From Bacteroidota bacterium (lineage in GTDB: Bacteria > Bacteroidota > Bacteroidia > 2-12-FULL-35-15), in the NCBI GenBank assembly GCA_947466965.1, contig CANIFU010000001.1, positions 125,885 through 173,248 on the forward strand: a stretch of DNA of 47,364 nt, given 5' to 3'. Under the pieces are notes generated by a model, which worked only from the letters and a program-made list of their open reading frames with translations, searched no databases and was not told the DNA's origin. This document shows positions 4,195-22,134 of this stretch, piece after piece. The position numbers and the translations under genes were made by a program. The first letter of the stretch is position 1. Every line of letters starts with the position of its first letter.

Positions 4195-6573
4195 TTAAAA
4201 TTCTATTTTATATCCAAAGTAAGGAAACAAACCTAATTGATATTCCTGTTGTATAATTTGAGTATTTGCATTGTAAGATTCTCTTAAAATATTCTGTGTG
4301 TCGAATATGTTTTCTACAACTAAAAAAATACTTTGTGATGTTTTTTTACGGTTTGTTTTAAATGATAATTTAATGTCGAATCGGGCGTAATCTTTTAACT
4401 GTTTTGAAAATGCTTCCTCATCAATGTATACAGCTTGCCTGGATAATTTTGATTTTTCAATATCTATTGGGGTGTATCTGTTACCTCCTGATTGCGTGTA
4501 TTTCATGTCAAGAGATAAGGCTTTGTTTTTATTTTTACCAAGACTTAGTTCATATCCTGCCAATGCATTAAAAACATAACCTCCGTCAAAACTTGTGTGA
4601 TGTTCAACGCTATTGCTTCCTTTGTATTTCGACTGGTAAATGGATGCCGTTAAGAGGTAATAAAAATGCTTGCTGAAAAATTTTTCAAATGTAAACTCTA
4701 TTCCTATATTTTCTCCATCACCTTTGTTCACTAAACTATCAACTAATGGAATTCCTTCTAATGCATTGCCAACATTAATCATTGAAAATGAGGAGTTCAA
4801 ATTTTGTTGAACAGGTACGTTGTAAACATATTGATAATATCCTTCCAGTTTTACACGATATGATTTGGTGAAATTAAAATCGTAAGCTAAAATAGCATGC
4901 TGACTTTTTGTGAGGTTGAGTTTACGATTGCTCTTGAAGTAACTGTCGGTGGATGGAATATATGTTTCATAAAAATAATAAATAGTAGGCTGCATCTGAC
5001 TGTGCATTCCGTAACCTAAACTCAGATTTTGTTTAGGGCTTATTTGAATTCGCAATCCTAGGCGTGGTTCGAGGGCTGAAGTGTTGTTCAGCAAAAAGTT
5101 TTGGTAATGAAGCCCGCTATTAATCGTAACCTTGTCTGATGGTCGGAATTGCCAATGAAAAAAACCTTGTAAAAGATCAGCTGTTGATTTGTTGACATTG
5201 AGATTATAAATGTATTTTCCATATTGTGTTGAATAGTCAAATGATTTGGCATCAAAATAGATGCTTTGATAGGTGGCTCCGAATTTGATCAGATGCTTTG
5301 CATTTATTTTTGCAGATACGATATAGTTCGCAATAAAATTTGCTTCAGTAGATTTGTTTTTGCGTTTTAAAAAAGTAGAACGATCGATAGGAGAAAGTGT
5401 ATCAACAAATGCGTCTAGGTCTGTTGCTGAAACAGAAAGTGAAAGTTTTCCTGAGGCATTAGTATTGAAAAAGTATAAATGTGAAATACCTGTTGTGCCC
5501 ATGCTTGTTCCAAATACAAGGTCCTGTCCGCTGCTAATGTAAGACCAATCTGTTTCTTTTCGTTCACTATCCAATAAGGATAATTTACTCTTCCCTCCAA
5601 TACCCCAAAGTGTAAAAATACCTGCTCTTTTTGTTGGAACATTTACTTTATAAGAAATGTCTTGGTATTGAGGACTCGCAGATACTCCAAAGCGAATTCC
5701 TAATTTGTTAAATAGTTCAAGTGTTGAATAGCGGTAGTTAATTAAATAAGAGCTGCCATTTTTTTTTGATATAGGGCCTTCTGCTCCAAGCTCTATTCCA
5801 TTTATTCCGAGTGAACCGGTATATTCGTTTTGTTCATTATTTCCATTTCGCAATCGTATGTCGAAAACGGCAGCTGTTTTATTCCCGTATTCAGCAGGAA
5901 ATGCACCTGTTAAAAAATCGGTGTTGCCTAAAATGTTATTGTTAAGCATGCTAATGGGCCCGCCTGTTGCCCCCTGAGCTGAAAAATGGTTGGGGTTGGG
6001 GATGTCAATTCCTTCCATACGCCACAATACGCCTAATGGAGAATTACCTCGAACAATAATATCATTTCGTGCATCATTACCCGATGACACTCCGGCATAG
6101 TTTGCAACCATTTTGCTCGGATCGCCTCTGCTACCGGCATATCTACCAGTTTCTTCTGCCAGAAAGTTGCGGGAAGATACAGTTACCAGCTCATTGTTTG
6201 CCTTTGTTTTGTCCTTTTCAGAGATAATCTCGACCACTTCCGATGTATATACTTTTTCCCGAAGCTCAATTGTTAGAACGACTTCTTTACCTGATGTAAC
6301 AATAATATTGTTTACAATCGCTTCTTCATATCCAAGCGATGCTATTTTAATTGCCCTTCTGCCAACAGGGATATTGACTAACCTAAATTTTCCGTCCACA
6401 TCTGTAGTAGAACCTATGAGTGTGTCGCTATTCAATAAAATAACGTTGGCACCAAATAGAATCGATTTTGAATCGGCATCTATTATTTTTCCACGAATAG
6501 TTTGAGTATAGGTTTGAGCCTTTGCCGAAAAAATGCAAAAAGAAAATATGAATATGAAAGTTATTTTTTTCAC
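4195..6573 (-). CDS. TonB-dependent outer-membrane receptor
   Basis: A second outer-membrane receptor on the same strand, 206 bp upstream of the first, but not a close copy of it. It has a signal peptide (first ~20 residues, FSAKAQ), a CarboxypepD_reg-like domain (~25-110, containing DVDGKFRLVNIPVG), and a plug with DIIVRGNSPLG and an MEGIDIPNPNHF stretch. The barrel of roughly 550 residues ends FPYFGYKIEF. Its 792 residues are normal for the family. No SusD partner is present and the substrate is unknown. A TAnnTTTG box ends only 4 nt before the ATG, so the message may be leaderless. Confidence 0.88.
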   Translation of the reverse strand: MKKITFIFIFSFCIFSAKAQTYTQTIRGKIIDADSKSILFGANVILLNSDTLIGSTTDVDGKFRLVNIPVGRRAIKIASLGYEEAIVNNIIVTSGKEVVLTIELREKVYTSEVVEIISEKDKTKANNELVTVSSRNFLAEETGRYAGSRGDPSKMVANYAGVSSGNDARNDIIVRGNSPLGVLWRMEGIDIPNPNHFSAQGATGGPISMLNNNILGNTDFLTGAFPAEYGNKTAAVFDIRLRNGNNEQNEYTGSLGINGIELGAEGPISKKNGSSYLINYRYSTLELFNKLGIRFGVSASPQYQDISYKVNVPTKRAGIFTLWGIGGKSKLSLLDSERKETDWSYISSGQDLVFGTSMGTTGISHLYFFNTNASGKLSLSVSATDLDAFVDTLSPIDRSTFLKRKNKSTEANFIANYIVSAKINAKHLIKFGATYQSIYFDAKSFDYSTQYGKYIYNLNVNKSTADLLQGFFHWQFRPSDKVTINSGLHYQNFLLNNTSALEPRLGLRIQISPKQNLSLGYGMHSQMQPTIYYFYETYIPSTDSYFKSNRKLNLTKSQHAILAYDFNFTKSYRVKLEGYYQYVYNVPVQQNLNSSFSMINVGNALEGIPLVDSLVNKGDGENIGIEFTFEKFFSKHFYYLLTASIYQSKYKGSNSVEHHTSFDGGYVFNALAGYELSLGKNKNKALSLDMKYTQSGGNRYTPIDIEKSKLSRQAVYIDEEAFSKQLKDYARFDIKLSFKTNRKKTSQSIFLVVENIFDTQNILRESYNANTQIIQQEYQLGLFPYFGYKIEF

Positions 6574-6577
6574 GAAG

Positions 6578-6585
6578 CAAATTTA
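6578..6585 (-). promoter_or_regulatory. Candidate -7 box immediately before the receptor ATG
   Basis: The minus strand reads TAAATTTG, then 4 nt, then the ATG at 6573. Bacteroidota transcripts start a few bases after this element, so the mRNA would begin at or next to the start codon. Confidence 0.5.
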
Positions 6586-6665
6586 ACATTATATCGGTCA
6601 AGTTTATTATTTTATAATCTCATTTCGTAGCTATTGCTTCCTGATATAATCAATAAAATAATTGT

Positions 6666-6673
6666 TAATTTTG
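6666..6673 (+). promoter_or_regulatory. Candidate -7 box immediately before the EI24 gene
   Basis: The plus strand reads TAATTTTG, then TGAG, then the ATG at 6678. The 4-nt gap equals that of the divergent receptor gene across this 104-bp intergenic region and points to leaderless transcription. Confidence 0.5.
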
Positions 6674-6677
6674 TGAG

Positions 6678-7463
6678 ATGCAAAAACAGATGTCTTTTTT
6701 TGAACAAGTTGTTATGGCAATAAAAAGTTATGGTAAAGCAATCTCTTTTGTTTTTGAAAAAGGCTTGTGGCTTTATTTTATATATTCTATTGTTATTGCC
6801 GGCTTGTTAACTTTTGTTGGCTTTGAAATAATTCGTCACCTGTCCGATTTACTTGAAGAGTGGATCATGTCTTTTTTTACTGCTGATAAAAAAGATGGAT
6901 GGTTTCGCTTTCTGAGTGATGCACTTTATTTTCTTTTGTCGATCGGACTAAAAATTCTATTCTTTTTTATTTTTTCAACGTTTAGTAAATATATTTTGTT
7001 GATTCTGATGTCACCTATAATGGCATTGATATCAGAGCGGACGGAAGAGATTATTACCGGAAATGTATATCCATTTAATTTTAATCAATACATAAAAGAT
7101 ATAGGCAGAGGCATTGTAATTGCATTGCGTAATATGCTTATCGAATTTGGATTTATTTATCTGGGATTCTTAGTAGTATGGATTCCTATTATCGGATGGA
7201 TAGCTGCTTTATTTTTAATTGTTTTATCTTATTATTTTTATGGATTTTCAATGATTGATTATGTGAGTGAACGCAGAAGAATGGGGATGTCACAGAGTGT
7301 AAGCTATGTTCGTAAAAATAAAGGATTATCGATTGGAAACGGATTTGTTTTTTCCCTCATATTTGCAATTCCTCTAATTGGAGGGATGCTGGCTGCAGTG
7401 GTGGCTCCCGCCGCCGCTTGTATTGCCGTATTGGAATTAGAAAGCAGAAAATATAATGAATAA
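6678..7463 (+). CDS. EI24/CysZ-like multi-pass membrane protein
   Basis: Inner-membrane protein of 261 residues. Hydrophobic segments lie near residues 30-50, 90-118, 150-195 (two helices) and 222-255, with a loop holding SERTEEIITGNVYPFN. Length and pattern fit the EI24 (CysZ-like) family; CysZ itself is a sulfate importer, but most Bacteroidota members have no proven function, so transport of sulfate is not claimed. Its last 8 bases (ATGAATAA) contain the start codon of mqnA, so the two are co-transcribed and probably translationally coupled. Confidence 0.75.
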   Translation: MQKQMSFFEQVVMAIKSYGKAISFVFEKGLWLYFIYSIVIAGLLTFVGFEIIRHLSDLLEEWIMSFFTADKKDGWFRFLSDALYFLLSIGLKILFFFIFSTFSKYILLILMSPIMALISERTEEIITGNVYPFNFNQYIKDIGRGIVIALRNMLIEFGFIYLGFLVVWIPIIGWIAALFLIVLSYYFYGFSMIDYVSERRRMGMSQSVSYVRKNKGLSIGNGFVFSLIFAIPLIGGMLAAVVAPAAACIAVLELESRKYNE

Positions 7464-8339: not shown

Positions 8340-9989
8340 ATGAAAAAAGTAATGTATCTGTCAATGTTCTTAATGTTTTTATTAGGCGTTGTTTCTGCTC
8401 AGGAAAAAACGGATAACAAACAGAATTTATTTGATAAAGGCGGAGATGTTGCCAAAATGGTTCTTGCAGAACAAAAATTCTATGCATTAGATTTTAAAGG
8501 AGCATTAAATATTTATACAGATATTTTGTCTGGTAAGCCAAATGATGCGAATGTGATTTTTCATATTGCCGAATGTTATTATGAAATGAAGCAAATGAAA
8601 GAAGCGCTTGAAAATGCTGAAAAGGCGAAACGTATTGATCCCAAAGCGAATCCCAATAATTCATTTTTATTAGGTAAACTCTATCAGATGGAAGGGTTTT
8701 CAGATGAAGCTTTGGTTGAATACACTGCATTTAAAATGAATACAGTAAGTAATAAAAAAACACAAGAAAGTGGTGTTGATATTTGTATAATGCAAGTGAA
8801 CACTTCAAAACAATTAATGGCAAATCCTGTTGATGTGAAAGTAGTAAATATGGGTGATGTGATTAATTCTGAGTTTGAAGATAAAGCACCAATGGTAAGT
8901 GCCGATGGTAAAACCTTGATTTTTACTTCGCAGCGTCCAGGTAAATCAAGTGCAGTAAATTCGGATGACGGAATGTATTTTGAGGATATTTATATTTCTA
9001 GATGGGATACTTTAAAAAAAAGCTGGGGTGATGCAGAGCTTATTCCCGGATCTTTAAATACAGAGGGACAAGATGCTGCAACAAGTATTTCTCCTGATGG
9101 AAAACAAATTTTTCTATTTAAAAATGATATCGATGCGGAATCCCGGGGGGGCGATATTTATGTTTCCCGTTTAAGTTCTTCAGGAAAATGGGGTGCTCCA
9201 AAATCAATGGGAAAGCCTATAAATACTACGTTTGCGGAGTTGGGTGCCTGTAGTTCCCCTGATGGCAAAACTCTTTATTTTACAAGTGAGCGTCAAGGTG
9301 GATTTGGAATGCAGGATATTTATATGGTGAAACGTAAATCACGAACAGAATGGGAAAGGCCTGTGAATTTGGGTGAAGTAGTAAATACACAAGAGGATGA
9401 CGCCGGAATTTTTATTGCTCCGGATGGTAAAACACTTTTTTTTACTTCTAAGGGTCATGCTTCAATGGGTGGTTACGACATTTTTAAAACCACAATGGAA
9501 AATGGAAAATGGACTAAGCCAGTGAATTTAGGCTACCCCATCAATACTATTTATGATGATTTGTGTTTTAGTTTATCCATTGATGCTAAAACAGGTTATA
9601 TTTCAAGTAACAGAAAAGGTGGCTTTGGTGCTCGCGATGTATACATGGTTGATCTTGCTAATTATCCTGTTCTTGAAAAAGAAATGAAAAAGCGGGTTGA
9701 AAATAATGGTCCTGTTATGGCAATCTTAAAAGGAGATATTTTCGATGCAAGTGCCGGATCTGGAATGGAAGCAGAGGTAGTTGTTTATGATGAAACTGGA
9801 GCTAAAGTTGGAAGTACGTTATCAATTGAAGGAAGCGGAGAGTATTTCCTAACATTGATTACCGGTAAAACATACCAAGTAAAAATAGAAGTGAAAGGCT
9901 ATAAACCTGTTGATGAAAAGGTTGAGGTCAACGCATCTAAAGATGGGGCAACCACAATAGTGAAGCATTATTTACTTTATAAAAAATAA
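8340..9989 (+). CDS. Secreted/periplasmic TPR and PD40 beta-propeller protein
   Basis: 549 residues with a signal peptide (MKKVMYLSMF to VSAQ), a TPR-like helical region (~40-150), then a WD40-like PD40 propeller (~185-440) with repeated motifs such as APMVSADGKTLIFTS, TSISPDGKQIFLF and IFIAPDGKTLFFTS. A small Cna-B/carboxypeptidase-regulatory-like beta domain ends the protein. The order TPR-PD40-regulatory domain is that of T9SS-linked periplasmic proteins such as PorE, but the C-terminal OmpA peptidoglycan-binding domain of PorE is absent. I chose the ATG at 8340 because it begins the signal peptide; an in-frame codon at 8298 would bury it. Function is not established. Confidence 0.82.
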   Translation: MKKVMYLSMFLMFLLGVVSAQEKTDNKQNLFDKGGDVAKMVLAEQKFYALDFKGALNIYTDILSGKPNDANVIFHIAECYYEMKQMKEALENAEKAKRIDPKANPNNSFLLGKLYQMEGFSDEALVEYTAFKMNTVSNKKTQESGVDICIMQVNTSKQLMANPVDVKVVNMGDVINSEFEDKAPMVSADGKTLIFTSQRPGKSSAVNSDDGMYFEDIYISRWDTLKKSWGDAELIPGSLNTEGQDAATSISPDGKQIFLFKNDIDAESRGGDIYVSRLSSSGKWGAPKSMGKPINTTFAELGACSSPDGKTLYFTSERQGGFGMQDIYMVKRKSRTEWERPVNLGEVVNTQEDDAGIFIAPDGKTLFFTSKGHASMGGYDIFKTTMENGKWTKPVNLGYPINTIYDDLCFSLSIDAKTGYISSNRKGGFGARDVYMVDLANYPVLEKEMKKRVENNGPVMAILKGDIFDASAGSGMEAEVVVYDETGAKVGSTLSIEGSGEYFLTLITGKTYQVKIEVKGYKPVDEKVEVNASKDGATTIVKHYLLYKK

Positions 9990-17271: not shown

Positions 17272-17913
17272 TTATTTCCCCCAATCAGCAGGGTTTTCGC
17301 GCCAAGCTTTTAATGATTTTAAATCATTGTCGTTAATATAATTTGATTGAAGCGCCTGGTTAATCATAGTATCATAATTACTGAGCGTAACCAATTCGCA
17401 TTTTAATTTTTTAAAATTGTCGGTAGCTGTTTTGAATCCATACGTAAAAATTGCCGCCATTCCTTTAACGTCACATCCTGCTTCCCGGAGTGCTTCCACC
17501 GCTTTTAAGCTGCTTCCTCCCGTAGAAATAAGGTCTTCAATTACAACAACTGATTGTCCTTTTTCAACAACCCCCTCAATCATATTAGTAAGTCCGTGTT
17601 TTTTTGCTTCAGAGCGAATATAAATAAAAGGTAACCCCATTTCTTGTGCCACAAGAGCACCAAGAGCAATGCCGCCTGTAGCAACTCCCGCAATCACATC
17701 TGGTTTGCCAAATTTATCAAGAATTGCATTAACAAATTGTTGGCGAATAAAAGTACGTACTTGTGGAAATGATAATGTTACTCTGTTATCACAATATATT
17801 GGTGATTTCCATCCCGATGCCCAGGTGAATGGTTTGTTGGGTTGTAATTTTACCGCTTTCACTTGCAACAAAAATTCTGCAACCTTTAATGCAGATTCGT
17901 CATTTTTTTTCAT
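17272..17913 (-). CDS. pyrE: Orotate phosphoribosyltransferase
   Basis: Joins orotate to PRPP to give orotidine monophosphate in de novo pyrimidine synthesis. The 213 residues include the substrate segment FTWASGWKSPIYCDNR near 25, GVATGGIALGALVAQEMG near 78, and the PRPP-binding motif VVVIEDLISTGGSS near 125. Length is standard. The ATG at 17913 lies only 4 nt after a TAnnTTTG box, so the message is probably leaderless. pyrG, another pyrimidine gene, is 16 kb away, so there is no pyr operon here. Confidence 0.95.
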   Translation of the reverse strand: MKKNDESALKVAEFLLQVKAVKLQPNKPFTWASGWKSPIYCDNRVTLSFPQVRTFIRQQFVNAILDKFGKPDVIAGVATGGIALGALVAQEMGLPFIYIRSEAKKHGLTNMIEGVVEKGQSVVVIEDLISTGGSSLKAVEALREAGCDVKGMAAIFTYGFKTATDNFKKLKCELVTLSNYDTMINQALQSNYINDNDLKSLKAWRENPADWGK

Positions 17914-17917
17914 CCGC

Positions 17918-17925
17918 CAAAAATA
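17918..17925 (-). promoter_or_regulatory. Candidate -7 box immediately before pyrE
   Basis: The minus strand reads TATTTTTG followed by GCGG and the ATG at 17913. The 4-nt gap matches that seen at 6578-6585 and 6666-6673. Confidence 0.5.
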
Positions 17926-20702: not shown

Positions 20703-21245
20703 TTACCCAACATTGTTTTCAAATATTGCAAAATTTACATTCCCATAACTACGGTGTTCTTTGAAATGAAGTAGTTTACTTAAGTCTGTTGTAGGTCCGT
20801 GTTCAACGATTAACCAACCATTCGGTTTTAGTAATTTGTTTGCGAAAACAAGTTCGGGTAAAAGTTCAAAATGTTCCATGTCATAAGGTGGATCACAGAA
20901 AACAATATGATAAGGTAGATTTGCTCTTTTCAAAAAGGTAAACGCATCTGATTTTATTACTTTTATTGTATTCATCTTGAACTCGGAACTTGTTTTTTTT
21001 ACAAATTCACAACAGCTGTAATTGCTATCTACACTTGTGATATCACCACAGCCACGGGATGCAAATTCGTAGGTGATGTTACCTGTTCCGCAAAAGAGAT
21101 CTACTATTTTTAGTCCATCAAATTCAAAATGATTATTCAGGATATTGAATATACTTTCTTTTGCAAAATCTGTGGTAGGTCGAACCGGAAGATTTTTGGG
21201 AGGATGAACAACTCTTCCTTTGTGAGTGCCACTTATTATACGCAT
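20703..21245 (-). CDS. rsmD: 16S rRNA (guanine(966)-N(2))-methyltransferase
   Basis: Methylates G966 of 16S rRNA in the assembling small subunit. The 180 residues have MRIISGTHKGRVV at the start, the SAM motif VDLFCGTGN (48-56) and the N-methyltransferase motif DPPY (118-121). Its first 10 bases overlap the end of the DUF3822 gene, so the two are co-transcribed and probably coupled in translation. This pairing is common in Bacteroidota. Confidence 0.94.
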   Translation of the reverse strand: MRIISGTHKGRVVHPPKNLPVRPTTDFAKESIFNILNNHFEFDGLKIVDLFCGTGNITYEFASRGCGDITSVDSNYSCCEFVKKTSSEFKMNTIKVIKSDAFTFLKRANLPYHIVFCDPPYDMEHFELLPELVFANKLLKPNGWLIVEHGPTTDLSKLLHFKEHRSYGNVNFAIFENNVG

Positions 21246-22120
21246 TCGTTATAGTAGCTATTAAATAAGGTGAAATTAAAATGTTTGGGTAATGTTTGTA
21301 ATTGGTAGCTATAGTCTGAGTTTACTGTTCGTTCAGCAAATTTTATATTACGGATGTATTTGTTAATTAGTATGTATAGGCTAGACGACTTTTCGATTTC
21401 GCCTAATATGACAGTTTCTGTTTTTTCGGGATTGAGTTGAAGTTGTTCAAACGCAAATAAAACATAATAAATAAAATCTTCTGGTGAATGGTAGTTGAAT
21501 GAATTGTAAAATATTAAATTTCTACTCTCTAATAATAGTATCTCTAAGCGAGAAGATTCAATATTTATGTATATTTTTTTTCCAGTTTGATTTTTATTGC
21601 TTGTTGAAAGCGTATTTATTAATGCACTGGAAGTATGGTGGTATTTTACATTTGAATAGAATTGATCCAGTTTTAATTTTAAGGATGCTGGCATTGCAAA
21701 TACATTTTTAGCATCTAAATTTTTGAGCTCATCCACCAATATAAATTCACTCTCGTTGATTGAAACATTGAATTTTAAATACATTTCTTTTCTGTTTTCT
21801 TCAAATAATGCATTTGGAACCAGGGTTGACAAATTGCTTACAATCAAACAAACTACTGATTGGAATCTATGATTGATAAGTTTACTTTCCTCTACTAGTA
21901 AATCGAATAATTCAGTAAATGCTTCAGAACTATCTGTGTTAGAAACAATATATTTTTCTAATGCAATGTATTTGTTTTGTTGATTATCATGAATTGCTAT
22001 TAGAATATCATTCACTCCAATTTGAAGCAATAGCTGATACGATTGCGATTTCTTTTCATCGAATGCTTCATCAATGAATGAATGAAGCTGGGTTATTTTT
22101 TTTTTAAAATCGGTTGACAT
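21236..22120 (-). CDS. DUF3822 family protein
   Basis: 294-residue cytosolic protein recognised as DUF3822 from its position directly before rsmD and from its general pattern (for example YINIESSRLEILLLESRNL in the middle, and a C-terminal segment with FAERTVNSDYSYQLQTLP). There is no catalytic motif I can name and no signal peptide. The ATG at 22120 is preferred because an upstream in-frame codon at 22171 would run through the promoter box at 22127-22134. Function is unknown; the overlap with rsmD hints at ribosome or RNA work, but this is inference. Confidence 0.75.
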   Translation of the reverse strand: MSTDFKKKITQLHSFIDEAFDEKKSQSYQLLLQIGVNDILIAIHDNQQNKYIALEKYIVSNTDSSEAFTELFDLLVEESKLINHRFQSVVCLIVSNLSTLVPNALFEENRKEMYLKFNVSINESEFILVDELKNLDAKNVFAMPASLKLKLDQFYSNVKYHHTSSALINTLSTSNKNQTGKKIYINIESSRLEILLLESRNLIFYNSFNYHSPEDFIYYVLFAFEQLQLNPEKTETVILGEIEKSSSLYILINKYIRNIKFAERTVNSDYSYQLQTLPKHFNFTLFNSYYNECV

Positions 22121-22126
22121 CTTTTG

Positions 22127-22134
22127 CAAAGATA
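22127..22134 (-). promoter_or_regulatory. Candidate -7 box immediately before the DUF3822 gene
   Basis: The minus strand reads TATCTTTG, then 6 nt, then the ATG at 22120, again implying an extremely short or absent leader. Confidence 0.45.

Follow-up and report, generated by a model that had tools for sequence, protein, structure and literature searches.

Bacteroidota do not use Shine-Dalgarno sequences, and in the small number of species mapped, leaderless transcripts have been dismissed as rare. In mycobacteria, the start codon of leaderless mRNAs is restricted to ATG or GTG. The published maps of Flavobacterium johnsoniae (PMC6847099) and Flavobacterium psychrophilum (PMC9723704) place the TAnnTTTG box at positions -12 to -5 and the transcription start site 4-5 nt past the box. 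Of the mRNAs of F. psychrophilum, 5.5% are leaderless (PMC9723704), in F. johnsoniae about 13% of the leaders do not exceed 10 nt (PMC6847099), and 3.7% of the 5' UTRs were found by dRNA-seq to be under 10 nt in Bacteroides thetaiotaomicron (PMC7366714).

The window analysed here, i.e. the whole stretch of 47,364 nucleotides, contains a divergent gene pair separated by a gap of 104 bp (6574-6677). On the minus strand lies a receptor-like gene (4195-6573, 792 aa) with a signal peptide-like N-terminus (VKKITFIFIFSFCIFSAKAQ) and a CarboxypepD_reg N-terminal domain, and on the plus strand an EI24/CysZ-like gene (PF07264, 6678-7463, 261 aa). A preliminary description of this DNA reported a TAnnTTTG box 4 nt before both divergent starts, and the coordinates bear this out. 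The EI24 box TAATTTTG (6666-6673, plus strand) is followed by the four nucleotides TGAG and the ATG at 6678, which is the predicted +1. The box of the receptor-like gene, TAAATTTG (6578-6585, minus strand), is followed by CTTC and the start codon. This codon had been described as ATG; the spacing holds, but the codon is GTG (6573-6571, minus strand), and its first base would be the +1 of the transcript. Two more genes on the minus strand had been listed with similar gaps, and both gaps were found as described. The pyrE-like phosphoribosyltransferase gene (17272-17913, 213 aa) carries TATTTTTG at 17918-17925, 4 nt before the ATG at 17913, and the DUF3822 gene (21236-22120, 294 aa from the ATG at 22120) carries TATCTTTG at 22127-22134, 6 nt before its ATG. 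All four boxes match the narrower pattern TAHHTTTG, in which neither free position is a G. In the window, pyrE is divergent to a gene for a NUDIX hydrolase.

The box alone says little, as the window has 94 TAnnTTTG matches where 76 +/- 8 would be expected; it is the spacing that is informative. Of the window's 36 called genes, four have a box at 4-6 nt (P ~4e-6 against the chance background; P ~0.02 against the genome's own rate of 41/1423). A genome-wide excess at 4-6 nt had been named beforehand as the check. We ran it on 1.9 Mb (34.6% G+C) sampled from the genome of 3.1 Mb in 128 contigs, in which 1425 genes were called by a dicodon model with starts picked independently of any motif, and the spacing was counted over 1423 of them. 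The excess was found, with its peak at 4 nt: the counts at spacings 0-11 nt were 0, 4, 2, 3, 21, 11, 9, 9, 8, 5, 1 and 1, with a background of 1.4 per position. The value at 4 nt is about 15-fold over the background (P ~1e-17), and the view that the repeated spacing is unlikely to arise by chance thus holds both in the window and genome-wide. Permuted and reversed motifs gave no peak over the same genes (0-4 per position), and the peak was missing at 8962 internal in-frame ATGs. The distribution is two-humped, with one hump at 4-9 nt (leader of 0-5 nt) and another from about 15 nt (leader >10 nt). The trough at 10-14 nt, where the implied leaders are about 6-10 nt, holds 12 boxes, where the flanks would predict about 54. 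The surplus at 4-9 nt amounts to about 54 genes, or 20% of the total box excess at 4-79 nt. The same trend, with small numbers, was seen in G009, a distant species of the genus (48% G+C, 400 kb).

In the genome of the window, the in-frame start codons at 4 nt were 22 ATG, 2 GTG and 1 TTG, and a pattern count gave no excess of GTG at this spacing there (19 vs 24 in the control). Raw counts discriminate poorly in this genome (94 at 4 nt vs 76 for the reversed pattern), since most of the ATGs counted are internal and the counts depend on codon phase; they were replaced by start-based counts and by counts at spacings that share a codon phase (1, 4, 7, 10 and 22 nt). We also noticed that TATCTTTGTATGGTG is identical in two species (G000:C12:8391-8405 and G025:C2:111445-111459). 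Here, an ATG lies 1 nt and a GTG 4 nt past the box, both in the same frame, and the GTG may be the real start.

The spacing is also conserved in the genus. For EI24, 14 of the 19 readable orthologues have the box at 4 nt, at identities down to 43%, and in four of these 14 the box ends in TTTA. One subclade (G004, G014, G026) has it about 19-22 nt upstream, i.e. in a leadered layout, so the leaderless layout is not needed for the function of EI24. For pyrE, 18 of the genus's 20 other species have a 4-nt spacing, the box being TATTTTTG, TATCTTTG or TATATTTG, and seven relatives of the DUF3822 gene have TATCTTTG at 6-9 nt. Regarding the receptor-like gene, the start codon varies with the layout. 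All 12 orthologues with GTG have the box at 4 nt, one of them via a box with one mismatch, while none of the nine with ATG does (7-19 nt, except one at about 41 nt). On the protein tree, which predates the settling of two start assignments, the GTG label needs three changes, so the association between GTG and the 4-nt spacing reflects few independent events.

Outside the genus, about 21 of the 26 loci that could be read have the pyrE box at 4-8 nt. At eight loci or more it overlaps or abuts the first codons of a divergent gene, and as the box is partly confounded with these codons, we do not use the outside loci as main evidence. In other families (L190, L199, L203 and L206-L210) a divergent gene of about 200 aa lies on the opposite strand, its start 0-8 nt away from the ATG of pyrE. 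Its product typically starts with MYKVFI..., and the pyrE box lies within its first codons.

What we observed here are the boxes, their exact spacing, the genome-wide excess, the two humps and the conservation in the genus; the distance from the box to the transcription start is taken from other Bacteroidota. With the G of the box at -5, a start codon at a spacing of 4 nt would begin at +1. The boxes would then serve as promoter -7 elements for the primary sigma factor of Bacteroidota (sigma-ABfr type), RNA polymerase would initiate at the start codon or within 1-2 nt of it, and the genes would be transcribed as leaderless mRNAs. The DUF3822 gene, with its 6-nt spacing, would have a predicted leader of 0-2 nt. 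From this geometry we infer the 5' ends of the transcripts, and likewise that ribosomes would begin on a 5'-terminal AUG, or GUG in the receptor-like gene. The genome-wide peak, the spacing kept across the genus and the published geometry together support the leaderless mRNAs proposed in the preliminary description, and we give a probability of roughly 0.88 to the reading that the boxes are sigma-ABfr -7 elements of genes yielding leaderless mRNAs that start on AUG or GUG.

The boxes could be real promoters and yet the main transcripts could come from promoters further upstream, the leaderless form being minor. Boxes of alternative sigma factors fall outside the consensus, and the long gaps before some genes leave room for other promoters; additional upstream promoters with a non-consensus box may exist and would count against our reading. 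However, a search of the 104-bp gap found exactly one exact TAnnTTTG per strand and no further one, and a single extra box with one mismatch, oriented for the receptor-like gene. Moreover, the divergent order of the two genes is retained in many species with gap lengths from about 90 to >400 bp, and the 4-nt spacings of pyrE, EI24 and the receptor-like gene are preserved across the genus though gap lengths differ. Such purifying conservation of the exact spacing suggests that the leaderless form matters, and we consider dominant upstream promoters unlikely.

The leaderless appearance could also come from mis-called starts, with the true start codons further downstream and ordinary short leaders before them. 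In EI24, the second in-frame ATG at 6690 would make a leader of about 12 nt. The orthologues, however, retain the first start and lack the second Met, which supports the ATG at 6678 as the start. The 4-nt peak persists under all start-picking rules tried and for the 853 unambiguous ATG starts with no competing ATG nearby, and proteins of the leaderless set, such as UvrB, CoaX, RecR and SurE, match their family profiles from about residue 1. Mis-called starts would also give no sharp cut-off at 4 nt. This explanation seems quite improbable to us.

The promoter features of the leaderless-type set (box at 4-9 nt) were compared with those of leadered genes. TAHHTTTG fits 60 of the 63 boxes at 4-9 nt genome-wide. 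Inspection of the sequence found no TTTG element at -33 at either promoter of the divergent pair, and the element is not enriched in the leaderless set (2/60 vs 26/247 leadered, Fisher P 0.13). The preliminary description was right about this absence and took it to weaken the case, but TTTG is uncommon even at the leadered promoters, so its absence is no strong objection; nor do we treat it as required, since it is hardly visible in F. johnsoniae too (PMC6847099). An AT-rich tract at -15 to -20 is common to leaderless and leadered promoters, and in the leaderless set the G+C content at -20 to -16 is about 5-12%. Genes of the leaderless type are divergent in 36 of 63 cases against 386 of 1391 genes in general, as would be expected of genes that have their own promoter. 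The set includes priA, uvrB, recR, a recQ-type gene, coaX, surE and folK, as well as futalosine hydrolase, tilS-like and NAD synthase genes. Several members, namely priA, uvrB, recR, the recQ-type gene and a MutS-like gene, belong to DNA repair or replication.

These features bear on whether TTTG with the four following bases is a translation initiation signal within a leader and not part of a promoter. Such a signal is conceivable, since Bacteroidota have no Shine-Dalgarno sites and rely on different sequence features around the start (PMC6847099). However, the full box with its AT-rich tract also precedes other genes at 15-40 nt, as expected of a promoter, the near absence of G at the free positions at 4-9 nt resembles mapped promoters, and in orthologues the box shifts as a unit to longer distances. 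We regard a translation signal as very improbable. Chance matches of a short AT-rich motif, which the number of boxes in the window would by itself allow, have next to no probability: for these genes taken together, the permuted and reversed motif controls, the 4-nt peak and the conservation in orthologues refute them.

Similar layouts seem to be spread well beyond the genus. In an annotation-free pattern count over one genome per family, using spacings of the same codon phase, 61 of the 63 Bacteroidia families showed a larger number of sites at 4 nt than at 10 nt (median ratio 1.96). Two families had a large excess of TAHHTTTG exactly 4 nt before ATG or GTG. In the genomes of f41, which are about 2 Mb in size (G075, G108, G143 and G169), 137-190 ATG per genome were at 4 nt, compared to 5-20 at each of 1, 10 and 22 nt and 34-55 at 7 nt; for GTG, 48-64 were at 4 nt vs 4-7 for the reversed pattern. 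The genomes of f37 (G071, G105 and G122) had 234-317 ATG at 4 nt vs 68-92 at 1, 10 and 22 nt, and 44-56 GTG vs 9-21. The pattern counts, on which all families outside the genus were assessed, suggest as a lead that leaderless mRNAs are widespread in the clades f37 and f41. Initiation on a leaderless AUG or GUG is probably a standing mode throughout the class Bacteroidia, and a major one in these two families.

A fixed and conserved spacing between box and start could offer a route to leaderless genes in uncultured Bacteroidota from the sequence alone. It could be used to correct gene starts, including GTG, and to choose clades for the study of leaderless translation. The orthologues of the receptor-like gene, some with GTG in a leaderless layout and others with ATG and a leader, would be a natural test of start-codon rules.

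Among the known systems, F. psychrophilum and F. johnsoniae share with our organism the phylum, the TAnnTTTG -7 box and the lack of Shine-Dalgarno use (PMC9723704, PMC6847099). The 5' ends were mapped there, whereas here the case is built on genomic sequence, with about 20% of the consensus-box excess within 80 nt at 4-9 nt. B. thetaiotaomicron is of the same class and promoter type and also has a small share of short leaders, but these were measured by dRNA-seq and the genes named are different ones, namely transposases, sensor kinases and transporters (PMC7366714). The leaderless mRNAs of mycobacteria resemble our case in having a box directly before the start, both AUG and GUG at +1, and frequent conservation among orthologues (PMC4633059). 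They differ in that the box belongs to another sigma factor, about a quarter of the transcripts are leaderless, and translation was tested by reporters, whereas we infer it (PMC4633059). The TA-led genes predicted in bacterial genomes were likewise taken as leaderless from a promoter box some 10 bp ahead of the start codon; the box there was the sigma-70 Pribnow box, and the Bacteroidetes genes came out atypical (PMC3160421). Leaderless mRNAs are thus already known in Bacteroidota, at about 4-13% of transcripts, and the finding is ordinary in kind. For Bacteroidota, a limited literature search brought up no account of a leaderless GUG. The new part is the conserved, putatively GUG-type leaderless case in the receptor-like gene, together with the candidate families f37 and f41, whose pattern counts give hundreds of sites at 4 nt.
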